36,241 nt of DNA from positions 1 through 36,241 of the IMG/VR virus record IMGVR_UViG_3300030389_001910; one strand, given 5' to 3'. This DNA comes from a virus. The position numbers and the translations under genes were made by a program. Positions within the stretch are counted from its first letter, which is position 1, and each line of letters opens with the position of its first letter. Positions 9,050 through 32,417 of the stretch are shown one piece after another. Below the pieces are notes generated by a model. It ran no database searches, was not told the origin of the DNA, and worked only from the letters and a program-made list of their open reading frames with translations.

Positions 9050-9296
9050 CAAGTATTTCCATTAGTATATCACCAATATATTTAAAAAAAGTTTTATCAA
9101 ACTTTTCTTTTGGTATTGCATTGTTTTCTATTATATCATATTCAAACTGCATAATCAAACTTCCGTCTTTTACAACAGGTGAAACTTTTCCATATTTATA
9201 TATGACTCCAGCGTAGTCACCTTCATTAATACCTATGCAAGTTTGGTCTGGGTATTTTGCTGACTCAATATAACTATATCGCTTTTTCTTCTCCAT
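9003..9296 (-). CDS. Small hypothetical protein between uvsX and gene 41
   Basis: 97 residues ([20 protein letters not shown]). It reads as a small beta-rich protein with an amphipathic helix at about 70-85 ([16 protein letters not shown]). A small gene in this exact slot occurs in many marine T4-like genomes. It overlaps uvsX upstream by 23 bases and gp41 downstream by 47 bases. Function unknown; the position suggests a role in replication or recombination. Its coding sequence contains a chance TATAAATA that I did not call as a promoter. Confidence 0.65.
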
Positions 9297-10314
9297 AAGA
9301 ATATTCTATCTTTGCAGCCTCCTCTAACTTTTGCATGATCTCATCTGTAAAATATGATTGTGGATCATCATTTATAGTTTTGCCAAACACTTTACGACCA
9401 TCTGGTAGTTCATATTTTGTAGATACCTTTTTAAATATGTCATGTTTTTCTGCAAGTTGAAGAAGTCCATAATATTTGTCAAGACCTTTATTATATGTCA
9501 ATCTAACTTCACACTCTGAGTTTTCTTTTGTTAATCTTGACTTTTGATTTTTTGCTTTGATAATATTACCGATAACTTGAGTTCCGTCTTTTTCTTTCTT
9601 CTTACTTAGATATACAATACTACTTGCGGCATATTTAAGTCCACTGCCACCACCCATTTCTTTCATTGGAACATATGATCCAACAACATCATAAGTGTGA
9701 TTTGTTACAACCATTGGTACTTTTGCTTTACCTAATTTAAGTGTAAGTATTCTAAATGCAGCCTTTAGAACTTGAGCCCTTGTCATATCTCTTGTTTCTT
9801 TTCCCTCTGCTGTATCCTCAACTTCTTTTGTTGTTGACAACATACCCAGAGAATCAAGACACATAAACATAGGTCTTCTAATATCAACATCTTGTTGCAT
9901 GTATCTATCAAGAACTTTAATTGCCTGTGTTCTGAACTCTTGCACAGTTGAGACAGGTAAGACTACCATTCTTGATGCATCAATGCCTCTATCAACAATC
10001 ATTTTTTTAGTCACTGCTGACTCTGACTCAAAGTAAACAACACCACCATCTGGGTTTGCATCTAAAAAGTGTTTACACATTCCCATAAGAAAAAATGTTT
10101 TACCAGTTGCAGATTCACCTGCAAGTGCTGTTATTTTATTTTGTGGAAGTCCACCATAAAGTGAACCACTTAACATTCCGTTTAAAATATAAGAACCAGT
10201 GTCGATAAAGTTTTCAACATCACCTGATTCAACTCCGTCTTCTACTAGATTAGCATATTCATTGCCAGTTGTTTTTATGATCTCTTTTAAAAAATCATTT
10301 GCATCTGTTCCCAT
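9274..10314 (-). CDS. uvsX: UvsX recombinase (RecA family)
   Basis: 346 residues; T4 UvsX is 391. It forms filaments on single-stranded DNA and drives strand invasion for recombination-dependent replication and repair. Walker A is GESATGKT at 66-73, preceded by [13 protein letters not shown]. Walker B is [12 protein letters not shown], and [20 protein letters not shown] covers the RecA-like L2 and following strand. ATG 10314 has an excellent ribosome site (AAGGAG, 5 bases). It is separated from gp43 by the modification cassette and a 78-residue gene. Firm assignment. Confidence 0.95.
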
Positions 10315-10323
10315 AATTACTCC

Positions 10324-10560
10324 TTATAAATTTTTATTTAATAATTCTGGTCTGTATATTGTATAGTTCTCTATTAAGTCTGAGGGTATACATTGAAGTT
10401 GAAGACCAGGTAAGTCACTTAACTCAGAATATATTTCTCTTCTTGCGATTAGACAATTTTCCATATCAAGATATAAATATTTTGACGCTATGTTTGTACA
10501 TACTTCATCGCCAGGCATACCTAAACACAAAAACCCAATCAAAAATACTGCTGTGCTCAT
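10324..10560 (-). CDS. Small protein with hydrophobic N-terminus, hypothetical
   Basis: 78 residues. The first 14 (MSTAVFLIGFLCLG) are hydrophobic and could be a signal peptide or a single membrane anchor, although no basic residue precedes them. The remainder has Cys at 21, 35 and 57 and looks compact (KYLYLDMENCLIARREIY). The start overlaps the stop of the CmoA-like gene as ATGA, and the stop is 9 bases before uvsX. I cannot name a family; an export or membrane location is inferred from the N-terminus only. Confidence 0.55.
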   Translation of the reverse strand: MSTAVFLIGFLCLGMPGDEVCTNIASKYLYLDMENCLIARREIYSELSDLPGLQLQCIPSDLIENYTIYRPELLNKNL

Positions 10561-11270
10561 TTGATTACTATTGCTCCTAAAAAATTATGATTACGCCAAA
10601 ATACTTGTATATCTTTAAAACCTGCCTTCGTCAAGAACTCATTTATTTCTGGCCAAGTATTTGGTTTCAACATGTGTCGTAGTGTGTTTTCTTTATCTAA
10701 AATGTCTTTATCTTCGAAATGTTTTCTTTTGTAATCATAATACATAAATGTTAACATATCTTGAATATGAGCATTCTGTGAATAAACTTTTTCTGCAAAG
10801 ACAAATGCGCCACCAGGTATTAAACTTGTATAAATGTCTCGTATCAATTTTTCTCTGTCTGTTTTAGGCATGAACTGTAAAGTAAATATTGATGTAATAT
10901 AAGAATATTTATTGTAACCTAACGAATATTCTCTTATATCCTTTTCACTAAAATTAATAAATGATCTATTTTTACTTTCCTCAACCATTTTCCATAATTC
11001 ATCAGACCTTTTATGAAGGTCTTCTTGAAAACCTTTTGCGTATTCAACACCTTCGTATGTGACACGATTCTTATGTTCATGATTTTCTAAAAATATTTCT
11101 TTTGTTAGTTTGCCAGTTGAACATCCAATATCTAGAACATGTGTTTTTTCTTCTACAAAATATCTAGAAAATGATACAACATCATTCAATAATTCTTTAT
11201 AACCTCTGATAGATTTGTCAATGTGATTATCAAATCCCTCTTCTCTGTGTGCAAATGTAAAATCGTTCAT
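10557..11270 (-). CDS. CmoA-like carboxy-SAM synthase homologue
   Basis: 237 residues; E. coli CmoA is 247. CmoA converts SAM and prephenate to carboxy-S-adenosyl-methionine (Cx-SAM), normally used by CmoB on tRNA wobble uridine. Similarity runs the full length: FTF at 4-6, HIDKSIRGY (16-24), SAM motif I DIGCSTG (47-53), FTLQFMPKTDRE (129-140), IPGG (151-154), EK (160-161) and FLTKAGF (212-218). The Arg that binds the new carboxylate (E. coli Arg199) aligns with Glu194, while Arg198 appears one helical turn later, where E. coli has Glu. Cx-SAM production is therefore likely but not assured. ATG 11270 overlaps the methyltransferase stop (TAATG) with AAGGA 7 bases upstream. An ordinary methyltransferase derived from CmoA is the alternative. 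Confidence 0.8.
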   Translation of the reverse strand: MNDFTFAHREEGFDNHIDKSIRGYKELLNDVVSFSRYFVEEKTHVLDIGCSTGKLTKEIFLENHEHKNRVTYEGVEYAKGFQEDLHKRSDELWKMVEESKNRSFINFSEKDIREYSLGYNKYSYITSIFTLQFMPKTDREKLIRDIYTSLIPGGAFVFAEKVYSQNAHIQDMLTFMYYDYKRKHFEDKDILDKENTLRHMLKPNTWPEINEFLTKAGFKDIQVFWRNHNFLGAIVIK

Positions 11271-12406
11271 TATATATTCCTTAAAACATTATCATACATG
11301 GAACTCGCAAGTGCTTTCATCATTAACGATGGCACCATTCTTCCACATCTCTCTGATTTTTGAGCCCACTTACCTGTCAATATAAAATCGTCTGGTAGTG
11401 ATGTTACTCTTTTTAATTCACCTAAAGTAAACTTTCTGTCTTCTTCCCAATGACAAACTCCAGCAGTTTTTTCTGTTGCACCCATGGCAGTAATAGTAGG
11501 TGACGGATGAAACTCTGATGCAATCTTTAAATTAAAATGCCAACCTTTTGGATGATAGTCTGTGCCTGTAATTACTTTGTCTGGGTTGCGTGGCATCAAT
11601 ACACAAGTTTGTTTGTAGTATGCTGTTTCTTTCCACATTCTGGTTAACATTTCCACTTCATCATTATCATATTCTAAACCATCAAAGGCACCTTGTAAAG
11701 TGGTAATTGTTTCATTCTCTTTTGGAAATATTGATGATAGTGTCATAAAATTTAAACCAACTTGATCCATAATATCATCTCTAACTGCCATGAAGAAAAC
11801 TCTTCGTCTTCTTTGTGGAACTCCAAACTGTGAACAATCATGCACTTTTGCAACTACTTGATATCCAATGTCTTCAAATGTATTTTGTATTTTATTAAAA
11901 TATTGTTTTGCCTCTCCGACTGTAAGACCTTCAACATTTTCTGCGATAATAGTCTTTGGTCTAATCTTATCTGCAACTCTTAAAAACTCAAAGAATAAAT
12001 CTTCAATGTTTGTAACTATCTTTCCGTCTGAGTAAGATTTAGTTTTACCAAATCCGTCACTATGAACTGTTCCTTCTCTTGCAAGTGTTCCACACATACT
12101 AAACGCTGAACATGGAGGTGATCCGTCTAACAATTCAAGTTCACCTTCTTTTATATTTGCAATCTCTAAAAAATCTTTTCCTTCTAGTTCTTTGATATCA
12201 CCATCAAGAATAGGTGTGTTTGGATAATTATCTCTGTAAGTATTTCTTGCTTCCTCAACAAACTCATTTATTGCAAGTATCTTTCCACCTGCAAGACGAT
12301 AACCTGTGGAACTTCCACCACCACCTGCGAAAGTAGATATGACACGAAACTTTTCTTGTGCCTCTCCGTCTAATACGTCTTTCATTAAGTAAGGTTTGTA
12401 TTTCAT
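11270..12406 (-). CDS. Cytosine-C5 DNA methyltransferase-family enzyme, Asn-to-Arg in motif X
   Basis: 378 residues with the full set of C5-methyltransferase motifs: I (FAGGGGSSTGY, 26-36), IV (GSPPCSAF, 95-102, catalytic Cys99), VI (ENV, 156-158), VIII (QRRRR, 198-202), a target-recognition region at about 215-320, IX (LGELKRVTSLPDDF, 328-341) and X. In motif X the near-invariant GN-x-V-P is CGRMVP (354-359), so Arg356 replaces the Asn that lies beside the SAM donor. In M.MpeI, basic substitutions at this Asn permit Cx-SAM use. It lies between an AsnB-like gene (ATGA overlap) and a CmoA homologue (TAATG overlap). No restriction partner is adjacent. I infer cytosine carboxymethylation in phage or host DNA; plain methylation is the alternative. 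Confidence 0.9.
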   Translation of the reverse strand: MKYKPYLMKDVLDGEAQEKFRVISTFAGGGGSSTGYRLAGGKILAINEFVEEARNTYRDNYPNTPILDGDIKELEGKDFLEIANIKEGELELLDGSPPCSAFSMCGTLAREGTVHSDGFGKTKSYSDGKIVTNIEDLFFEFLRVADKIRPKTIIAENVEGLTVGEAKQYFNKIQNTFEDIGYQVVAKVHDCSQFGVPQRRRRVFFMAVRDDIMDQVGLNFMTLSSIFPKENETITTLQGAFDGLEYDNDEVEMLTRMWKETAYYKQTCVLMPRNPDKVITGTDYHPKGWHFNLKIASEFHPSPTITAMGATEKTAGVCHWEEDRKFTLGELKRVTSLPDDFILTGKWAQKSERCGRMVPSLMMKALASSMYDNVLRNI

Positions 12407-13224
12407 ATAAAGTTTTCCAAAGTGCCTTTACTGTCAACTATTTTTGACCAGTCACGACACACATCCATAATTCTTTTCCTATCATATATGTTTATCTCTT
12501 TATTGTCAAGAAGTTTCTCAAATATAGTTGGTATCTCTGCGACAAGTTGTAAATTAAGATGTTTTTTAAGTTTAAGTTCATCAAACTCATGAAAATGTTG
12601 TCTAATTAAATGCTTTTCATATGGTTTATTAATCTGATCCCAATCAAATTGTATGAAATAATTAAATACATCTTTATTTAAATAAGGTGCAATCAGAATC
12701 TTATTATGTTCTTTACTTAACATTTCTAATTGTCTAACACCTGCTGGATTATCTGATGAAAAATAGTCTGTTCTAAATTTATCAAACTTTTGTTTGGTAT
12801 GTTTAAAATGTATCATGGCCTTTTTACTTAGACCATAGTGTCCGTCTGCGGCAACACCAGATATAATAACTTTCTCTTTTATCTTAGGATACATGTACAT
12901 GAATGGCCAAGTGCATTCAAATTGAACTTTCTTTTTGCAACTGTATGTGTATGCCAACTTTTTAAAGTCTTCAACTAAATTTTCAGTTGGCACTTCAATG
13001 CTTGTAAAATTAAATCCAAACTTTTCACATACCTCTTGTGCTTTTAGTGAGTCGTAAGTAGGATTATCTTTTATATGAAAAGAATATCCATGTACTTTTA
13101 AACCGAGACGGTTAGAAGTAAAAAGGCAAGTGTTGCTGTCAACGCCGCCAGATAAGAGAATAGCAACTTCAGTTTCATTTTGTCTCTCCTTTGTTATTAT
13201 TGTTTCTAGTAATTTGTGTATCAT
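12403..13224 (-). CDS. Asparagine-synthetase-like PP-loop ATPase without glutaminase domain
   Basis: 273 residues corresponding to the synthetase half of AsnB. PP-loop SGGVDS at 25-30 follows AILL; SGVAADGHYGL (122-132) matches the AsnB SGEGADELFGG segment; LIAPYLNKDVFNYF and Lys204 fit the later core. Enzymes of this type adenylate a carboxylate and pass it to ammonia or an amine. The N-terminal glutaminase is absent, so ammonia or another amine would be the nucleophile. ATG 13224 overlaps the gp43 stop (ATGA) with GAGGA 9 bases upstream. The last residues (GTLENFI) resemble the gp43 tail (GTLEDFFA), a likely clamp-binding peptide. Context suggests it amidates the product of the neighbouring DNA-modifying enzyme; free asparagine synthesis is less likely. 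Confidence 0.8.
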   Translation of the reverse strand: MIHKLLETIITKERQNETEVAILLSGGVDSNTCLFTSNRLGLKVHGYSFHIKDNPTYDSLKAQEVCEKFGFNFTSIEVPTENLVEDFKKLAYTYSCKKKVQFECTWPFMYMYPKIKEKVIISGVAADGHYGLSKKAMIHFKHTKQKFDKFRTDYFSSDNPAGVRQLEMLSKEHNKILIAPYLNKDVFNYFIQFDWDQINKPYEKHLIRQHFHEFDELKLKKHLNLQLVAEIPTIFEKLLDNKEINIYDRKRIMDVCRDWSKIVDSKGTLENFI

Positions 13225-15695
13225 GCAAAAAAGTCCTCTAATGTTCCTTGTGTACCATAAGTTCTATCAACATGCCATCCAATTTTTTCGATAATAAAGT
13301 TAAGTGGTTCAATGAATGATTTCTCAAACTGTAATTCATAATCAACTTTAAAATCAAGTTGTTTAGGAAGACTTGTAATAAATGATATAGACGATGATTG
13401 ATATATGTTTGGAAGTTTTAAATATAAGAATTTAATCTTGTCACCTTCTTGTATTAGAGGGTAGTACCTACTTAGTTTATTTTTATTTATTAGATGATTG
13501 TAAAGTATTCCACCTTTGACGTGTATCGGAGCACCTTTCTTAAAAAGTGTATGAGACTCAGACCATTTACTCAAACCATTGACACTTCTAGGATATGCGA
13601 TCTCCTCTGGTGGAAGTGTAAGAAACTCCTCACGAAAATTTTGTATAAATGTATTCAAATCTTTTTCATTGCCAGACATCATAATTCTTAATGCCTCTTT
13701 AATTTTCTTACGACAAGGTGCAGGTGTTGATGACTTAACTGCTTCTATTCCCATGATCTTTAATGTTGGTTCTTTGTATCTAACACCTTCAATATCATGT
13801 GCATTTAAAATATATCTCTTCTTTGCAGTCCAAATACCTTTATCTGCAATCACCTCTCTTTTCATTTGCATCTTTTGTTCAAACGCATTTAGATAGTCTG
13901 CAAGTTCTTGATAAGACTTGTCAATAAAAGGTTCAATTTTTTCTTTTGCAATCTTATCTAAAAAGTCAATAGGATTTTTTGGTTTTAGTTTTTTAATTAA
14001 TTCATCAAATGTTATGTAAACTGAATCAGTGTCAGACGCAAGAACATAATCTTTATCTTTAGTTTTTAATAAATTGTTCATGTATTCGTTTATCTTTTTT
14101 TCAATCCAACGAATAGATAGTTGACCAGAAGTAGTTATTGCCTCTGCCATAGTGTGTGAGTAATATCTAAACCAATTGTTTCCTATGGCACCATATGCTG
14201 AGTTCAGTGCAATCTTTTTTGCCATCTGTATATTATTAAATTTAGAAACTAACTTTTCATACTTTTTATCTCTAGTGTTTTCTAGAGTTTGTTTTGCATC
14301 AAGTAAAGCCTTTTTGTATCTTACTCTGTCGTCATACATCTTTTGCATCATCTCAGGTAAGAAACCTTTCTTATCAGTTCTAAACAAAGCACCATTAGGT
14401 GTCATCGTTGTATTTTTCAAAACAGATGTATCAACTTTTTTATCTAATAGTTTATCAACTGACATGTTAGGAACTGTCTTTTCACTTTTCATAGTTTCTG
14501 GTGATATATTATATTGCATAATCAAGTGTGGATACAATGAGTTTAGATCAAATGAAAGAACCCATTCATGCATACCCGTTTGTGGATCTTTTACATATGC
14601 ACCTTCATACTTCTCAGATTTTTCTCTGTCAATCTTTTGTGGCACAACTATACCTTTATCCATAAGATAATTGTGTATTAAAATATCCCAATACTTAACT
14701 GAACCTAAAACATCAGTGTAGTTTACTTTGGCCTCATATGCCATAGTCAAACACAAATCAATCAGTTTCATTTTCTCTTCAAGTTTATCAACTATCTCAA
14801 CGTCTGTAATATTGTAATCAATAAAAGATTGAAAATCATTTGTGTACCAATCTCTAAATGTGTCATAAGGATTTCCGTCTTTTCTTTCACCAAGTTCAAC
14901 AAATGCAATATGATCTAAACGATATGACTCTTGATTTGTGTATGTAAACTTTCTATACAAATCAAAGTAATCTAAGGCAGCGATACCTTGTATATCATAA
15001 ACTTGATGTGTGCGACCCATAGAGTAGATTGTCTTTGATGATACAGAACCCCAAGGTGATAATTTTTTTAGATCATCCTCACCACAAAGTTTTTTTATAC
15101 GATTGCAAAGATAAGGTATGTCAAAAAATTCTGTATTCCAACCAGTGATAACATCTGGTTGATTCATTTGCCAAAACTTTAAAAATTCAAAAATTAATTC
15201 TTTTTCATTATCACACTTTACATATGCCACATCATTCCTATGCGTTTTGTAATCGCCAACACCCCAAACAAATATTTGTTTGTTTGAATGATTTTTTACT
15301 GTGATAGAAAGTAAAGGTTCAATTGCATCTTGTGGATTTGGAAAACCATTTTCACATGCAACCTCTATATCGATTGTTGCAATTAGAATACTTTCTAATG
15401 ACCAATCTAAGTTAGGATAGTTTTCATACAAAAAAGAATATGCATACTGTGTATTACCATATAATAAATGTGGTTGTTCTTTGTATTGTTCAACCCACTC
15501 TTTCGCATCTTTTATTGTTTGATGTTTTATAGGTGTAACGTATTTACCTTCAAGAGTTTTGAAGTTTGTTTGACGCATCACTGGGCAATAAAGAGTTGGC
15601 GAATACTTTACTTTTCGATTTACTCTTTTGCCGTCTATGACTTCTCTAAGTAATAAGTTGTTTCCCCATTGAGAAACATTTGTATAAAACCTCAT
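13221..15695 (-). CDS. 43: DNA polymerase gp43 (family B)
   Basis: 824 residues; T4 gp43 is 898. Proofreading motifs are Exo I DIE (109-111), Exo II NTEFFD (187-192) and Exo III YNITD (294-298). Polymerase motif A is DLNSLYP (383-389), motif B is KKIALNSAYGAIGNN (493-507) and motif C is DTDS (555-558). All catalytic acids are present. The C-terminus GTLEDFFA matches the short hydrophobic clamp-binding tails of T4-type polymerases. The start ATG 15695 has no Shine-Dalgarno, but a strong promoter ends 6 bases before it, so the first message may be leaderless. It heads the operon that carries the modification cassette, uvsX and gp41. Confidence 0.97.
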   Translation of the reverse strand: MRFYTNVSQWGNNLLLREVIDGKRVNRKVKYSPTLYCPVMRQTNFKTLEGKYVTPIKHQTIKDAKEWVEQYKEQPHLLYGNTQYAYSFLYENYPNLDWSLESILIATIDIEVACENGFPNPQDAIEPLLSITVKNHSNKQIFVWGVGDYKTHRNDVAYVKCDNEKELIFEFLKFWQMNQPDVITGWNTEFFDIPYLCNRIKKLCGEDDLKKLSPWGSVSSKTIYSMGRTHQVYDIQGIAALDYFDLYRKFTYTNQESYRLDHIAFVELGERKDGNPYDTFRDWYTNDFQSFIDYNITDVEIVDKLEEKMKLIDLCLTMAYEAKVNYTDVLGSVKYWDILIHNYLMDKGIVVPQKIDREKSEKYEGAYVKDPQTGMHEWVLSFDLNSLYPHLIMQYNISPETMKSEKTVPNMSVDKLLDKKVDTSVLKNTTMTPNGALFRTDKKGFLPEMMQKMYDDRVRYKKALLDAKQTLENTRDKKYEKLVSKFNNIQMAKKIALNSAYGAIGNNWFRYYSHTMAEAITTSGQLSIRWIEKKINEYMNNLLKTKDKDYVLASDTDSVYITFDELIKKLKPKNPIDFLDKIAKEKIEPFIDKSYQELADYLNAFEQKMQMKREVIADKGIWTAKKRYILNAHDIEGVRYKEPTLKIMGIEAVKSSTPAPCRKKIKEALRIMMSGNEKDLNTFIQNFREEFLTLPPEEIAYPRSVNGLSKWSESHTLFKKGAPIHVKGGILYNHLINKNKLSRYYPLIQEGDKIKFLYLKLPNIYQSSSISFITSLPKQLDFKVDYELQFEKSFIEPLNFIIEKIGWHVDRTYGTQGTLEDFFA

Positions 15696-25020: not shown

Positions 25021-25044
25021 GACAGGTTGGGGGTTTATTGTCAA
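25016..25044 (-). promoter_or_regulatory. Sigma70-like promoter of the cobT-like gene
   Basis: TTGACA (25039-25044), 17-base spacer, CATTAT (25016-25021). Predicted start is near 25009, two to five bases before the ATGs. The -35 overlaps the stop of the sugar dehydrogenase gene. Confidence 0.7.
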
Positions 25045-26198
25045 GGGTTAATTTTATCGTTTATTCTCTCATTCCCATAATTTTCCCATACATTGAAAAC
25101 GTCAATGTTTTCGGGCGTTTTATCACTTGGCCACGATTGGAACAAAATGTCGCAGTCTTCAATATCCACGATTTCGCCACCATTTTCCTTGATATAATGT
25201 TGAACTAATAGAATGTAACTTCCGTCTTCGTTATCTACACCCTCTTTGAAACCTGTGCTTGTAAATGCTACTTTTTTCTCAACTACTCTACCTGTTGCAT
25301 CTTCCAATACTCTTTTTGCAAGAGTCTCTGCTTGTTTTTCTCTTGTCAACATGGTTTGTCCAAATAGATCATAATCTAAACTTAATTGTTTTGACAACCA
25401 TCTTAGTGCAATGTTGTCTCTTGGATGACAACTTCCACCATCGCCCAAACCAGGTTTCCAATACTTAGAACTGACAAGTCTCTTAGTTGATTTCGATAAG
25501 ACATCACAGATAAAGTTTGCATCTGTATTTTTCATCTTATCTGCAACGTCTTGTATCATGTTTACAAAATTAATTTTTTGAGTTATGTAAGTATTGTAAA
25601 AAATTTTAATACACTCTGCTTCTTTTAGATTACAACTTTGTATTTTTATATTTGTACCTTCATATATTGATTTGTAATACTCAATCAATTTTTTTGGTCT
25701 GTATGCTTCTTGATCCACTGATAATTTTTCTTGCACACCAATAAGATACATTTCTGCATCCATGAAATCTTGAGCCACTGTTCCTTGTGCGATAAACTGT
25801 GGACTATAAACAAAATTAGTATTAGGAACTAAATCTATTAATTTTTTTTCACATGTGGTTGGTAACACTGTTGACATGACAACTATCATTTGATCTTTTG
25901 TCATGAACTCATTTAGTTCAGAAAGTGTTTCAGTTAAAATGGTGTAATCAAAATCTTTTGGTTCTAAATGACTTGTAGGTTTGTCTCCACCATATTCTTC
26001 ATCGTGTGGTGTTGGAACACAAACAAATACTATCTCTCTATCGTTCATAGATTCTTTTAGTGAACCATGAACTATTTCTCTAGGTTGATTACGGTTGGTT
26101 ACATTGGGATCAAAACCCGTAACATCGTGACCTTTTTCGTATGATACATCACTAAGAGGTCTACCTAACTTACCTAAACCAACAAATCCTACTTTCAT
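25041..26198 (-). CDS. UDP-glucose/GDP-mannose 6-dehydrogenase family protein
   Basis: 385 residues. N-terminal NAD-binding Rossmann motif GLGKLGRP (7-14); VCVPTPHDEE and MSTVLPTTCEKKL are characteristic; PQFIAQGTVAQDF parallels EFLREGTAxxDF; EAECIKIFYNTY carries the structural Lys/Asn; GDGGSCHPRD at 252-261 has the catalytic Cys257. The family oxidises a UDP- or GDP-hexose to the uronic acid in two NAD-dependent steps. Substrate cannot be decided. It ends the accessory block that includes three possible glycosyltransferases (ATGA overlap with the nearest), so it probably supplies a uronic-acid donor or acts on a host sugar nucleotide. Confidence 0.88.
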   Translation of the reverse strand: MKVGFVGLGKLGRPLSDVSYEKGHDVTGFDPNVTNRNQPREIVHGSLKESMNDREIVFVCVPTPHDEEYGGDKPTSHLEPKDFDYTILTETLSELNEFMTKDQMIVVMSTVLPTTCEKKLIDLVPNTNFVYSPQFIAQGTVAQDFMDAEMYLIGVQEKLSVDQEAYRPKKLIEYYKSIYEGTNIKIQSCNLKEAECIKIFYNTYITQKINFVNMIQDVADKMKNTDANFICDVLSKSTKRLVSSKYWKPGLGDGGSCHPRDNIALRWLSKQLSLDYDLFGQTMLTREKQAETLAKRVLEDATGRVVEKKVAFTSTGFKEGVDNEDGSYILLVQHYIKENGGEIVDIEDCDILFQSWPSDKTPENIDVFNVWENYGNERINDKINP

Positions 26199-27202
26199 TT
26201 TAAACTCCTTATAGTGTCAAACAATTCTTTCTCTGGTTGTCTTGTTATTAAATTATTATAATTATATTCAAGAATGTCATAATTGTCAACAACTAATTTC
26301 TTTAAATCTTTTTTTGATAAATTTAAAATTAATTCTTTTATGTTATTTAGTCTTTCTGACGGCTCGATTATCGTATCATATTGTTCATTCCACATATGAT
26401 TAAATGTTTTATATCCTAAACTTCTTAAATGTCTAAGTGAATATGGTGGGCCAATCATTATGAAAGGCATCTTTAATAACATTGCTTTGTATGTCTTTTC
26501 ACTTAAATGATACCTATCAGTTTCCCTTTCAAACAAACATTCTGTAATAATGTATATACTATTTTGATATGAAAACTCCTCATCGAATATTAGATTTACA
26601 TTCTGATTTGTTTTTTTAAAAGTGTCTTTCATATTTAAAGGATCATTATTATTATCATAATACATGTTCTTAAATTTTTCATCATAAACTATAGAGTAAT
26701 CTTTATCATTGTATGAATAACTAGATACATCTAGTAAATTATTATCAACAAAAAACTCAGTTATATCTCTTCTATGTCTTACAGGTTTCCCATTCAAACA
26801 TAAAAACTTCTTTTCGTGTCTTTTTTTATTTACATCTATATTGATATTATATCGTTGCATTGCATATTCAAAATACTCAAAATGTATCGTTTTTAAATGT
26901 GAGTCTTTTGCATAACCAGGGTTATTTGTTATTACATAACACTTATCAAGATCAATGTCCTTTTTAAACAATTCATTAATAATTTGTTGATCGGCGTCCT
27001 TTGCACTATGCATTTCAAATCCAATATGAATAAAAATATACTCATCATTATATTTAAAGTCTTTAAATAATTCACTTATATGTTTTGTTTTTATCCTAGT
27101 CGATGTATTAAATAATGTTATATTCTTATCTTTGAAATCTTTAAGAAAATCTTTGAAGTCGATATAATATATTAGACTATCGTATTGTGATAATATTTTC
27201 AT
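26195..27202 (-). CDS. Glycosyltransferase-like protein, tandem paralogue 1
   Basis: 335 residues. The N-terminal half has a strand-turn pattern (YVITNNPGYAKDSHLKTIHF) and KKFLCLNGKPVRHRRD; the C-terminal half has NLIFDEEFSYQNSIYIITE, then SEKTYKAMLLKMPFIMIGPP (234-253) and LRSLGYKTFNHMW. The SEKTYKA...PFIIIG...LGYKTF segment resembles the donor-binding part of GT-B enzymes such as fucosyltransferases and exostosin-like proteins, but the family is not certain. It is clearly homologous to the two genes upstream (27199-28245 and 28242-29273). Overlaps its neighbours by ATGA on both sides. Confidence 0.65.
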   Translation of the reverse strand: MKILSQYDSLIYYIDFKDFLKDFKDKNITLFNTSTRIKTKHISELFKDFKYNDEYIFIHIGFEMHSAKDADQQIINELFKKDIDLDKCYVITNNPGYAKDSHLKTIHFEYFEYAMQRYNINIDVNKKRHEKKFLCLNGKPVRHRRDITEFFVDNNLLDVSSYSYNDKDYSIVYDEKFKNMYYDNNNDPLNMKDTFKKTNQNVNLIFDEEFSYQNSIYIITECLFERETDRYHLSEKTYKAMLLKMPFIMIGPPYSLRHLRSLGYKTFNHMWNEQYDTIIEPSERLNNIKELILNLSKKDLKKLVVDNYDILEYNYNNLITRQPEKELFDTIRSLK

Positions 27203-28245
27203 GACAAACTTCTCATCGTATCTAGTAATTCTTTCTCTGGTCTTCTAGACATTAAGTTATTATAATTGTGTTCAAGTATCTCGTAGTTTTCACTAATTAA
27301 TTTTTTTAAGTCTCTTTTAGATAGATTTAAAATAAGTTGTTGTATTTTTCTCATTCTATCGTGAGGATTAATAATAGAGTCATAATCTTCATCCCACATA
27401 TGATTAAATGTTTTGTATCCTAATTTTTTTAGGACTTTTAAAATATGTGGTTGACCAACTATAATGAATGGCATTTTCCACAACATAGCCTTATATGTTT
27501 TCTCAGTAATATAACAGTTTTCTAAATCATCATCAAAGTAACACTCTGTTACAACATAGATACTATTTTCATATGAAAACTCGTTGTCAAAAACTAAATT
27601 AACATTTAAGTCTTTTGTTTTCCATTTTTTCATTGATACTTGATCGTCATCATAATAGTAATCATTAAACTTATTATCATATGTTAACGTAATGTCTTTA
27701 TCTCTAAATGAATAACTTGAGTCTTTAATTAAATCATTATCAATAAAAAAATCTGTAAGTGTTCTTCTAAAATATTTTGGTCTACCATTCAAACATAGAA
27801 ATTTTTTATCATGTCTTTTTTTATTAACATCGACAATAATATTATTTTTACATTTATCATAATGTGGTTGTTCAAGATTACATTGTTGTATTGCATATTC
27901 AAAAAATTCAAAGTGTATATGTTTTAAATGAGAGTTTTTAGCAAACGTATGATTGTTTGTTATAACATATACTTTATCTAGGTCTATATCCTTTTTAAAC
28001 ATTTGTTCTATTATTTGTGGATCAGATTTACTTGCGACATGCATTTCAAACGCAAGCATTATAAAAATATATTCACCATTGTACTCATAATCTTTAAACA
28101 AATCACTAATATGTTTTTGATTTTGTATAAAAAATGCGTGAGCATTAGTGTTAAAAAATGTAAAGTTTTTATTATCAAATTCTTTCAGTAGTTTTTTAAA
28201 ATCAATATAGTGAACAAAATTATCATAATGTGTTAGATACTTCAT
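27199..28245 (-). CDS. Glycosyltransferase-like protein, tandem paralogue 2
   Basis: 348 residues from ATG 28245 (GGAG, 6 bases upstream; the longer frame starts with TTG). Same architecture as its neighbours: MKYLTHYDNFVHYIDFKKLL at the start, DKKFLCLNGRPKYFRR, VYVVTECYFDDD, ITEKTYKAMLWKMPFIIVGQ and LGYKTFNHMWDEDYDSI. It carries an extra insert near residues 115-125 relative to paralogue 1. Divergence is spread through the middle while the C-terminal motif is kept, which suggests selection for different acceptors on one fold. Function inferred only. Confidence 0.65.
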   Translation of the reverse strand: MKYLTHYDNFVHYIDFKKLLKEFDNKNFTFFNTNAHAFFIQNQKHISDLFKDYEYNGEYIFIMLAFEMHVASKSDPQIIEQMFKKDIDLDKVYVITNNHTFAKNSHLKHIHFEFFEYAIQQCNLEQPHYDKCKNNIIVDVNKKRHDKKFLCLNGRPKYFRRTLTDFFIDNDLIKDSSYSFRDKDITLTYDNKFNDYYYDDDQVSMKKWKTKDLNVNLVFDNEFSYENSIYVVTECYFDDDLENCYITEKTYKAMLWKMPFIIVGQPHILKVLKKLGYKTFNHMWDEDYDSIINPHDRMRKIQQLILNLSKRDLKKLISENYEILEHNYNNLMSRRPEKELLDTMRSLS

Positions 28246-29273
28246 GGTAATCTCCAAAGGGTATCAAGTAATGGTTTCTCTGGTCTTCTTGATAATAACT
28301 TTCTATAGTTGTATTCTAGTGTATCATAATTATCTGATATTATTGTTTTTAAATCTACTTTAGATAAATTTAAAATAAGTTCTTTTATTTTATTCATTCT
28401 TGTTAATGGATCAGTTATATCATCATACTGTTCACTCCACATATGATTAAATGTTTTATATCCTAAACTTTTCAAAAATTTTAAACTGCCAGGTTGACCG
28501 ATGATAATAAACGGCATCTTTAATAACATTGCCTTATATGTTTTTTCAGTGATTGCCATCATTTGTGGATTATCATTAAAACAAGATTCTGTTATAACGT
28601 AAACACTATTTTCATAAGAGAACTCCTCATCTAATAATAAATTACAACTGGTATCATATGCAAGTATGCGATTTTCTTCTATAGTATTATTATTGTGGTA
28701 TATCTTATCAAACTTTTCATCATAAACTAAGTGAATGTCTTTATCTTTATATGAGTAACTAGACTGTTCAATTAGATTATTATTAATAAAAAAGTTAGTT
28801 ATATCTTTACGATGATTATGTGGAAATCCATTTAAACACAAGAATTTTTTATCATGTCGTTTATTTACAACATCCACATCTAAACTTATATCCCACCTTT
28901 TAAAGTTTCCGTTTTTAAAAACTATTTGTTGCATTGCGTATTCGTAATATTCAAAGTGTATATGTTTGATATGTGAGTCTCTATAATTATAGTTTGATGT
29001 GATAACATAAACTTTATCAAGATCAATATCTTTTTCAAAGAGTAAATTAAGTAATGTTGGATCAGTTTCTTGTGGTATATGTGGTTCATAACCAAGATGT
29101 ATAAAAACGTGTTCACCATTATAGTCATAATTTTTAAACAGTTTACTAATATGTTTATCACTATCCTCAACCGATGTGTTGAAAAATGAAAAATTTTTAT
29201 CTTTATAATCTCTTAAAAAATTATTAAAGTCTATGAAAAATATATGATCATCATAATTAGAAAATATTTTCAT
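28242..29273 (-). CDS. Glycosyltransferase-like protein, tandem paralogue 3
   Basis: 343 residues from ATG 29273 (GGAG, 7 bases upstream), chosen because the two paralogues begin with the same MKxL/F..YD pattern; the frame is open further upstream. Carries KKFLCLNGFPHNHRKD, VYVITESCFNDN, ITEKTYKAMLLKMPFIIIGQ and LGYKTFNHMWSEQYDDI. It overlaps the SGNH-type gene by 17 bases. It is the most upstream of the three copies. Confidence 0.65.
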   Translation of the reverse strand: MKIFSNYDDHIFFIDFNNFLRDYKDKNFSFFNTSVEDSDKHISKLFKNYDYNGEHVFIHLGYEPHIPQETDPTLLNLLFEKDIDLDKVYVITSNYNYRDSHIKHIHFEYYEYAMQQIVFKNGNFKRWDISLDVDVVNKRHDKKFLCLNGFPHNHRKDITNFFINNNLIEQSSYSYKDKDIHLVYDEKFDKIYHNNNTIEENRILAYDTSCNLLLDEEFSYENSVYVITESCFNDNPQMMAITEKTYKAMLLKMPFIIIGQPGSLKFLKSLGYKTFNHMWSEQYDDITDPLTRMNKIKELILNLSKVDLKTIISDNYDTLEYNYRKLLSRRPEKPLLDTLWRLP

Positions 29274-30018
29274 AGATAAACTCCATAATATTTTTCTGTG
29301 TCTCTTCATTAGGGTGATGATCTACATCACTGATGGCATGATACTTGTTATTCCTATCTAAATGTCTCACAAGTTCTATGCCTCCTAGTTTACCAAACAC
29401 AGGCCAACCCCAAAACATATCTTCATTTATTTCAGTTGATATCGGATTACTAATCATACTTTTCTGTGCAATCTTAATATCATGTTCATAGTCATTATCT
29501 TTTATTTGATAACGATTAAATGCGTTAATCATTTGAAACATTTTTAATTCTATATCTCTTGATTTACATATTGCATACAAAGAGTAAAATAAATTTATAT
29601 TTTTGTTAACAATATTTTCAGGTGTCGGATAACTAGAACCAAATGCATTATTGTACCAATTTTGTAATTCATGTAAATCATATACACCATACTTTGGTTT
29701 ACATGTTGCAGAAACTTTTAAATTAGGTTTAAGTGTTACCCAATTATTATTTACTAAGAAATCTTGTCTAGTCCATTCTGTCCAAGCGACAATAACTCGT
29801 TCAATATTTTCATTATTAAATATTTCTGTTATTACACTATGAAATATTCTTTCATTTCCTATCCCACACTTTGCAGTATTAATTACTTCAATATTAGTTT
29901 TGTCACTAAGTAATTCTGGCCACATTTTAAAAGTATGTGGTAAAGGTTTTGTAGTATATGGATAAAACTTATCTGTAAAACTACAACCACCAACTATAAT
30001 TTTAGAAGACTTTGACAT
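29257..30018 (-). CDS. SGNH/GDSL-type hydrolase-like protein
   Basis: 253 residues. Block I is IIVGGCSFTD with candidate nucleophile Ser13; block II is NTAKCGIGNERIF with the oxyanion Gly; the C-terminal ISDVDHHPNEETQKNI supplies the Asp and His of a D-x-H-P motif. This fold removes or transfers acyl groups, often acetyl on sugars. The block III Asn is not obvious (VIVAWTEWTRQD), as in many divergent phage members. Placed between the carbamoyltransferase and the glycosyltransferase-like genes, it may trim or modify the same glycan. Confidence 0.7.
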   Translation of the reverse strand: MSKSSKIIVGGCSFTDKFYPYTTKPLPHTFKMWPELLSDKTNIEVINTAKCGIGNERIFHSVITEIFNNENIERVIVAWTEWTRQDFLVNNNWVTLKPNLKVSATCKPKYGVYDLHELQNWYNNAFGSSYPTPENIVNKNINLFYSLYAICKSRDIELKMFQMINAFNRYQIKDNDYEHDIKIAQKSMISNPISTEINEDMFWGWPVFGKLGGIELVRHLDRNNKYHAISDVDHHPNEETQKNIMEFIYENIF

Positions 30019-31318
30019 TATATTTTCTCATAAAATCAACTGCATCATCCCATGTATTCACAATAGGTTGACCTTTGATATTCAAAGAAGTGTTTAATAA
30101 CATAGGACACCCAGTTTTTTCATGCCATTCTTCCAATATAAGGCGGGCTACAGACGGATTTGACTTCTCTACGACTTGTACACGGGCAGTGCCATCAATA
30201 TGTGTGACAGACTTATAATCGTGGAGTGCTTTTGATACGAACTGCATATAACGATTCTTTCTACCATAAAAGTATTCTTCAAAATATTCCTCTAGTATCA
30301 TTGGTGCAAATGGTCTATATTTCTGTCTTTTTTTAATTTGATTAATCGTATCTTTTAAATTTGTTCTAGGATCAGCGATAAGAGAACGATTACCCAGAGC
30401 CCTTGGTCCAAACTCTGCTCTTCCGTTTGCAATACCACAATACTTGTGTTCTAATAAATGATTTACTACTTGTTTTGGATTGACACTTCTTACAATATTA
30501 TAACCTAGATATGGATGTTTCCAATTTAATCTTGCACCATTGATTAATGCGGCCGCTCCTAGTGATGAACCTGCATCGCCAGGTGACGGCATAATCCAAA
30601 CATGATAGTCTTTAGGTATCTTACTATTTGCAACACAGTTTAAAGCACATCCACCCATAATGATTAGATTTTTTTTAGTTGTATATTTTAATAATTCTAA
30701 AAATTTTTTCTCATACAATTGTTGCACTGATGCTGCCAGATCATAGATGTGTGCGTTAGGATATATGTTTCCAACTCCTCTATGATTATTTTGATATAGT
30801 AAGTTTTCTAAATCATGTATCGGTTCACCATATGCGGCCATACCCATTGTAATATACTCATCTTCATTTGGTTTTAATCCTATTCTTTTAGTTATTGCAG
30901 AGTATAATAACCCTAATGAGTATGGATACTTCCATGACTTTATTTTTTTCATGTTGTGCCAAATTGATATCGTATCCCATTCTCCTATCGCATCAACTAC
31001 TATTATATTACAATCATGGAAAGGTGCAGTGTAATAACCTGCGGCAGCATGTGTCTGATGATGTTTAAAGTAATAATCATATTTACTTTTTGGTGATATC
31101 CATTTTTGTCCAGCATATAATCTTCTTGTATTTTTTAAAAATGGTGATTCATAAAATGCAGAACAACGATAACTTATTGGTATTTGTTTTTTCGATATCC
31201 ACTTATCGTTTTTTATACGACTATATCTTTCACTATGAGATGCATGAACAATCTCTTGACCATTTAGAACAGTAACACCTGCATCATGAAAACCCTCTGA
31301 TATTCCTATGTTATACAT
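30002..31318 (-). CDS. Carbamoyltransferase (NodU/TobZ family)
   Basis: 438 residues, shorter than many NodU/TobZ-type enzymes. Signature segments: FHDAGVTVL and SERYSRIKND near the start, KHHQTHAAAGYY (metal/Kae1-like domain), MGGCALNCVANSKI, PSPGDAGSSLGAAA, then the YrdC-like part GRAEFGPRALGNRSLIADPR and CPMLLNTSLNIKGQP. The family uses carbamoyl phosphate and ATP to carbamoylate a hydroxyl on a sugar, antibiotic or, in some phages, a hydroxymethylated base. The acceptor here is unknown; sugar genes surround it. Overlaps its neighbours by 8 and 17 bases. Confidence 0.9.
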   Translation of the reverse strand: MYNIGISEGFHDAGVTVLNGQEIVHASHSERYSRIKNDKWISKKQIPISYRCSAFYESPFLKNTRRLYAGQKWISPKSKYDYYFKHHQTHAAAGYYTAPFHDCNIIVVDAIGEWDTISIWHNMKKIKSWKYPYSLGLLYSAITKRIGLKPNEDEYITMGMAAYGEPIHDLENLLYQNNHRGVGNIYPNAHIYDLAASVQQLYEKKFLELLKYTTKKNLIIMGGCALNCVANSKIPKDYHVWIMPSPGDAGSSLGAAALINGARLNWKHPYLGYNIVRSVNPKQVVNHLLEHKYCGIANGRAEFGPRALGNRSLIADPRTNLKDTINQIKKRQKYRPFAPMILEEYFEEYFYGRKNRYMQFVSKALHDYKSVTHIDGTARVQVVEKSNPSVARLILEEWHEKTGCPMLLNTSLNIKGQPIVNTWDDAVDFMRKYNVKVF

Positions 31319-31646
31319 TTTTTTTCACTGTACAAAATCTTTTACATTTATAATATGCATCATCATAATTTTTCCATGAGTTAGGTAATGTATCACTGAA
31401 CCATTTTGACTCTAGTATCTTATCCAAAGGTTTTTTGAATATATTATATTCATCTTTGTGTTCCATGTATTCTCTCATGATATGTTTGTTCTTTCCGTCA
31501 TTTTCAGTTTTGTACAATCTATCATCATCATTAATATCATATTTGTAAGCAAGATTACTTAAATAACAACACGGCCATACTTGACCATCTGGGTTTACTA
31601 TAACTCTGTTGTTATTCTTCCATTCACACTCAATACAATTTGTCAT
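31311..31646 (-). CDS. Stand-alone SPASM-like Fe-S domain protein
   Basis: 111 residues with seven Cys: CIECEW at the start, VNPDGQVWPCCYLSN, and CKRFC near the end. This is the auxiliary-cluster (SPASM-like) half normally fused to the C-terminus of a radical SAM enzyme. Here it is a separate frame that begins as ATGA at the stop of the radical SAM gene. It may pair with that enzyme, be fused to it by a -1 slip at AAAA just before the stop, or be the product of a mutation that split the gene. Confidence 0.7.
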   Translation of the reverse strand: MTNCIECEWKNNNRVIVNPDGQVWPCCYLSNLAYKYDINDDDRLYKTENDGKNKHIMREYMEHKDEYNIFKKPLDKILESKWFSDTLPNSWKNYDDAYYKCKRFCTVKKNV

Positions 31647-32302
31647 TTTCTTAGTGTTTGTTCTTTACCATTTTCATCTATGAAGTTAAATGTGTCACCA
31701 TATTCAAATCTATTTGAGTCAAAGTGTTTATAGTGAACTGCACCATAACTTCTTGCAAGTTCCTCTATTTGTTTTAAATAAGGTCTATTGTGTTCAAACA
31801 CTACTGTTTGTGCCATAGGTATTGCAAGTGTTCTTGATAACATTTCCATATTGTTTAAAGTTTTTTGTAAATTAGTTTTTCTACGATAATGACTATGCAT
31901 GTCTTGATCTATACCATCTACATCAAAGTGCATTTTTAATCTATTACCACAAAGTGCCCCTAACTCCCAATAAAAAGTATCTTCCCTTATTGAACCATTT
32001 GTGGTTATTTCTATATTACAATCACTCTCAGTAATAATATATTCACATATTGAGTAAATATCTTTTAACATCATTGGATCACCCCAAGTACCACAGAATT
32101 GTAGTTCTCCTAATTGATTTAATGAATCTTTGGGAAATGCTTTTTTAAAATCTTGTAACGTCCATTGTGTAAGTGGCAACCAATCATCTACTCCACAACC
32201 GTTTGGATTTGTCCTATCACATTGTGGGCAACCTGCATTACAAAAGTTTGTAATAGATAAATCAATCTTTGTGATTTTTGAATTGTTCCATGTCAATGTC
32301 AT
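31643..32302 (-). CDS. Radical SAM core protein
   Basis: 219 residues from ATG 32302 (GAGGACCCAG upstream); ATG 32329 is possible but has no clear ribosome site. TNFCNAGCPQCDRT carries the CxxxCxxC iron-sulphur motif (Cys21, 25, 28). LQFCGTWGDPMM stands for the GGEP SAM-binding motif, and EITTNGSI for the next strand. The partial TIM barrel ends without a C-terminal cluster domain; that domain follows as a separate gene. Substrate unknown; could modify a sugar, peptide or base. The start overlaps the 51-residue gene by 41 bases. Confidence 0.85.
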   Translation of the reverse strand: MTLTWNNSKITKIDLSITNFCNAGCPQCDRTNPNGCGVDDWLPLTQWTLQDFKKAFPKDSLNQLGELQFCGTWGDPMMLKDIYSICEYIITESDCNIEITTNGSIREDTFYWELGALCGNRLKMHFDVDGIDQDMHSHYRRKTNLQKTLNNMEMLSRTLAIPMAQTVVFEHNRPYLKQIEELARSYGAVHYKHFDSNRFEYGDTFNFIDENGKEQTLRK

Positions 32303-32417
32303 CTGGGTCCTCGTAAATAAAGTCATCATATTTTTCGTCTTTTTTGAAACGACTTAAAAAAGTATTCCAATATAATAAGATGTATAATTTTATTTTTTTA
32401 ATTTTTTTATATATCAT
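32262..32417 (-). CDS. 51-residue small protein after gp46
   Basis: ATG 32417 overlaps the gp46 stop as ATGA and the frame runs 51 codons to TGA at 32262. Residues 1-10 are basic (MIYKKIKKIK), 11-21 hydrophobic (LYILLYWNTFL), and 33-43 acidic (FIYEDPDDIDM): a likely small membrane-associated protein with the basic end inside. It fills an otherwise empty 84-base gap and overlaps the radical SAM start. Support comes from the exact coupling and ordered charge pattern, not homology. Confidence 0.5.
   Translation of the reverse strand: MIYKKIKKIKLYILLYWNTFLSRFKKDEKYDDFIYEDPDDIDMEQFKNHKD

Follow-up and report, generated by a model that had tools for sequence, protein, structure and literature searches.

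The window analysed here is the whole 36,241-base IMG/VR virus record IMGVR_UViG_3300030389_001910, from a marine T4-like phage. On its minus strand, between the DNA polymerase gene gp43 and the recombinase gene uvsX, lie three adjacent genes encoding homologues of CmoA, a synthase of carboxy-S-adenosylmethionine (carboxy-SAM, or Cx-SAM), CmoX, a DNA cytosine-C5 carboxymethyltransferase, and CmoY, an ATP-dependent amide ligase. All three open reading frames (ORFs) are complete and intact at the coordinates in Table 1. Transcription runs from gp43 through the ligase, CmoX and CmoA genes to an ORF of 78 amino acids (aa) and then uvsX. ATGA overlaps join gp43 to the ligase, the ligase to CmoX and CmoA to the 78-aa ORF, while CmoX and CmoA are joined by TAATG. 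A first-pass annotation, made from the letters alone, had described such a three-gene unit with TAATG and ATGA overlaps in this position, and every part of it is present.

The same annotation held that a natural DNA pathway of this kind would be new, a claim that is now outdated. The whole CmoA-CmoX-CmoY pathway was proved in Synechococcus phage S-B43 (MN018232) by Yang et al. (Nat Commun, 7 Dec 2025; PMC12783734), through biochemistry, a crystal structure and liquid chromatography-mass spectrometry. In that phage, CmoA (SpCmoA) makes Cx-SAM, CmoX (SpCmoX) uses it to form 5-carboxymethylcytosine at GC motifs and CmoY (SpCmoY) ligates glycine, and the glycyl product is contained in the phage DNA (PMC12783734). 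A full-text literature search found no further paper on the pathway. The first two predicted steps are right but already published, and the window is a further example of a known pathway. IMG/VR v4 was among the sources of the 5,615 CmoX candidates found by those authors (PMC12783734), so sequences like those of the window are probably already included.

The predicted synthase and carboxymethyltransferase

The window CmoA covers residues 14-237 of the 239 in TIGR00740, nearly its full length (E 6e-30), matches the Escherichia coli CmoA structure 4gek (E 2e-21) and is 55% identical to the proven SpCmoA. Together with the co-occurrence of the genes in relatives, this strongly supports the earlier prediction that the phage enzyme synthesises Cx-SAM.

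The neighbouring methyltransferase belongs to the C5 methylase family PF00145 (E 1e-50, profile search), and its best match by far in a PDB sequence search is 8YF3, the structure of SpCmoX (E 4e-141), with 59% identity between the two phages' proteins. Motif IV reads SPPC, with S96, P97 and P98 preceding the catalytic cysteine, C99. Motif X, GRMVP (within CGRMVPS), holds Arg356 at the position of Asn304 in HhaI and Arg350 in SpCmoX, a residue that contacts the carboxyl group (PMC12783734). In the alignment, SpCmoX residues F25, E47, F48, D69, C98 and R350 correspond to F26, E48, F49, D70, C99 and R356, so that all six are kept, including the four adenosine contacts of Cx-SAM (F25, E47, F48 and D69). 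Both the catalytic cysteine and the motif X arginine are invariant among distinct CmoX relatives (135/135), which were fetched with DNA patterns that left out the arginine position.

The link between this arginine and CmoA also appears in a control set of more distant phage C5-methyltransferases, drawn from named phages only. Arginine at motif X is found together with CmoA in the record of S-B43 and, within the control set, in those of Pseudomonas phage PaBG, Moraxella phage Mcat8 (where the CmoA match is weak, at 40 bits), Streptomyces phage TurkishDelight, Erwinia phage Yoloswag and Yersinia phage fHe-Yen9-02. Control enzymes from records without CmoA have leucine (Melnitz), asparagine (Aphanizomenon phage CL131) or methionine (Flavobacterium phage FPSV-S2 and Bacteroides LoVEphage). 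These results lend independent support to the use of the arginine-for-asparagine signature in predicting carboxymethylation. The carboxymethyltransferase M.MpeI N374K, discussed in PMC12783734, likewise owes its use of Cx-SAM to a basic residue at this asparagine position; that enzyme is engineered and CG-specific, whereas the window enzyme has its arginine naturally. Cytosine carboxymethylation by the C5-methyltransferase, as first proposed, is thus strongly supported by the identity to a proven CmoX, the retained active-site residues, including the carboxylate-binding arginine, and the co-occurrence described below.

The ligase and its probable amine

The window ligase consists of the AsnB synthetase (PP-loop) domain only (PF00733 Asn_synthase, E 3e-13), with the PP-loop motif SGGVDS at residues 25-30; a profile search of its 273 aa gave no GATase_6/7 match and no glutaminase domain. 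It is 46% identical to SpCmoY (E 1e-86). An AlphaFold2 model built on an alignment of 52 sequences has a mean pLDDT (predicted local distance difference test) of 94, and in a fold search of the PDB its best matches were beta-lactam synthetase 1mc1 and asparagine synthetases, with TM-scores (template modelling scores) of about 0.7-0.76 over the query. When the ligase sequence was searched against the PDB, the only match was spurious. Some CmoY homologues (loci L127 and L134 and their relatives) carry GGGTDS at the PP-loop in place of SGGVDS.

Two kinds of ligase adjoin CmoA and CmoX in relatives, namely short forms, as in the window, and forms of 463-474 aa that begin with (M/V)CGI. Examples of the latter (L202, L206 and TurkishDelight gp124) are likewise AsnB superfamily ligases beside CmoA and CmoX, but differ from the window ligase in carrying an N-terminal class II glutaminase domain.

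The cassette is very probably a CmoA-CmoX-CmoY system for DNA hypermodification that places a carboxymethyl group on cytosine and then joins an amine to it, most likely glycine. This reading draws on the genes, active-site residues, fold and co-occurrence found here, and on reactions shown in the relative S-B43. CmoA would convert SAM and prephenate to carboxy-SAM. CmoX, with Arg356 in place of the motif X asparagine, would then attack C6 of cytosine through Cys99 and transfer the carboxymethyl group to C5, probably within a short motif such as GC. Finally, CmoY would use ATP to adenylate the carboxylate of 5-carboxymethylcytosine and join the amine, with glycine giving 5-glycylcarboxymethylcytosine, and the modified base probably shields the phage genome from host nucleases. 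For this phage itself, we infer that the enzymes are active, that the target motif is GC, that the amine is glycine and that the modified base is protective.

The likeness to S-B43 lies in three homologous adjacent genes, the same CmoX active-site residues, arginine included, and an AsnB-type ligase that stands alone in both phages and is of similar length. However, the order in S-B43 is CmoA-ligase-CmoX, compared with ligase-CmoX-CmoA at the gp43-uvsX site of the window, protein identities are 46-59%, the target-recognition region is divergent and the window ligase falls in a separate clade. The bacterial CmoA/CmoB pathway to cmo5U in tRNA shares the CmoA homologue for Cx-SAM, but no CmoB was seen in the window and the acceptor here would be DNA cytosine.

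Several observations weigh against a simple transfer of the S-B43 chemistry. The phage is known solely as a 36-kb IMG/VR contig, and the chemistry is known from S-B43. The window CmoA scores 104.6 bits, under the 193-bit cut-off of TIGR00740, with the proven SpCmoA as its closer relative. The presumed target-recognition region of CmoX (residues 211-300) is only 40% identical to SpCmoX, compared with 68% over the N-terminal 210 residues; the GC motif therefore cannot be assumed, and the window enzyme may recognise another. The observed/expected ratio of GpC in the window, 0.86, is not strongly depleted and is uninformative as a trace of a GC motif. Lastly, the low identity of the window CmoY to SpCmoY, and its placement in a clade apart, mean that the amine may differ.

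It is this last point that gives most room for an alternative. The same route to 5-carboxymethylcytosine could end with another alpha-amino acid or a small amine instead of glycine, which is a less likely outcome but one to be taken seriously. Besides the separate clade, ligase clusters are on record whose active-site residues differ and whose amines are unknown (PMC12783734), and three loci (L013, L017 and L020) have CmoX proteins 89-92% identical to that of the window beside ligases only 47-55% identical, so the ligase evolves faster or is exchanged. By sequence, the window ligase should fall in the glycine or the alpha-amino-acid cluster of PMC12783734, and glycine is the most likely amine, although not a certain one. 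The amidation to 5-carbamoylmethylcytosine proposed in the first-pass annotation, with ammonia as the donor, is improbable. Membership of the AsnB superfamily would allow it, and ammonia is the predicted donor for the glutaminase-fused ligases that sit beside CmoA and CmoX in some relatives (PMC12783734), which would fit a carbamoylmethyl product. However, those enzymes score just 46-56 bits against the CmoY model. With no glutaminase domain of its own and a resemblance to SpCmoY, which is characterised as a glycine ligase, the window enzyme more likely makes a glycyl amide than a simple amide; the amidation step is thus left unsupported.

Least probable is an ordinary 5-methylcytosine methyltransferase beside unrelated genes. 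The enzyme does belong to PF00145, and a lone CmoA homologue could serve cmo5U synthesis in tRNA. Against this, arginine stands where ordinary enzymes have asparagine, the three-gene association is conserved and wild-type SpCmoX takes Cx-SAM only (PMC12783734).

Nearly identical CmoX proteins accompanied by different ligases suggest that the attached group is the fastest-changing part of the system. It is put forward only tentatively that the clade of the window ligase uses a different amine from glycine. If true, the phage DNA would carry a base so far undescribed, and exchange of the ligase next to a conserved CmoX would diversify the modification among close relatives.

Distribution among relatives

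Co-occurrence of the three families had been proposed as a test of the pathway, and it holds in IMG/VR. Where a CmoX-seeded locus extends 800 bases or more to each side, CmoA is present in 53/58; where it extends 2.5 kb or more upstream and 4 kb or more downstream, a ligase is present in 19/24. These figures come from a non-random sample of best-scoring relatives in which near-duplicates are counted. As the trio is found side by side in considerably more than 100 of the loci fetched, near-duplicates again counted, its neighbourhood is not due to chance. No clear substitute ligase was seen by eye among the neighbours of CmoX in loci without CmoY.

Other arrangements also occur. One CmoX with the arginine lies between gp43 and uvsX (L078, 7995-9146) in a locus with neither CmoA nor ligase, and may rely on host CmoA. 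A group of apparently orphan CmoY genes (L109-L135), with no CmoX or CmoA nearby, resembled a separate system, but none is claimed: in its sole long contig (L113, 80 kb), the ligase stands alone between gp43 and uvsX, with CmoX and CmoA about 17 kb away as a split cassette, while the other contigs searched in the group that lack CmoX are at most about 19 kb. Seven loci (L030, L061, L063, L081, L147, L151 and L225) have tandem CmoX pairs with the catalytic cysteine and the arginine beside a single CmoA. The second copy was considered as an ordinary methyltransferase, but all have PPC and every aligned full-length CmoX has the arginine; the tandem genes perhaps serve two target motifs.

The phage and its gene context

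The nearest named-phage match of the window gp43 is Methylophilales phage Melnitz (64% aa identity), and the closest named-phage match of the window DNA is Pelagibacter phage HTVC008M (68%). The gp43 comparison with named phages places this divergent T4-like phage nearer to a phage of methylotrophs than to cyanophages, and its cassette extends the recently proven pathway to such a phage. None of the CmoA, CmoX and CmoY genes lies in the gp43-uvsX slot of HTVC008M. In Melnitz, this slot, bounded there by gp43 and recA, holds the C5-methyltransferase with leucine and not arginine at motif X (L228, 3866-5083).

Table 1. Cassette genes and their neighbours in the window
Feature	Position	Strand	Evidence
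CmoY-like ATP-dependent amide ligase, 273 aa	12403-13224	minus	PF00733, SpCmoY identity, AlphaFold2 fold
CmoX-like DNA cytosine-C5 carboxymethyltransferase, 378 aa	11270-12406	minus	PF00145, PDB 8YF3 match
CmoA-like carboxy-SAM synthase, 237 aa	10557-11270	minus	TIGR00740, 4gek, SpCmoA identity
78-aa ORF of unknown function, possible fourth operon member	10324-10560	minus	overlaps CmoA stop codon
DNA polymerase gp43 (DNA polymerase B), upstream neighbour, overlaps ligase start	13221-15695	minus	PF00136/PF03104
UvsX recombinase (RecA/UvsX homologue), downstream neighbour	9274-10314	minus	PF00154, E 8e-13

Among the relatives compared, the 78-aa ORF is restricted to the window's own clade. Elsewhere in the window, one stretch encodes, all on the minus strand, a nucleotide-sugar dehydrogenase (25041-26198), a NodU/TobZ-type carbamoyltransferase (30002-31318) and a radical SAM protein (31643-32329). 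It also holds three ORFs of about 350 aa with very low GC and no family match (26195-29309).
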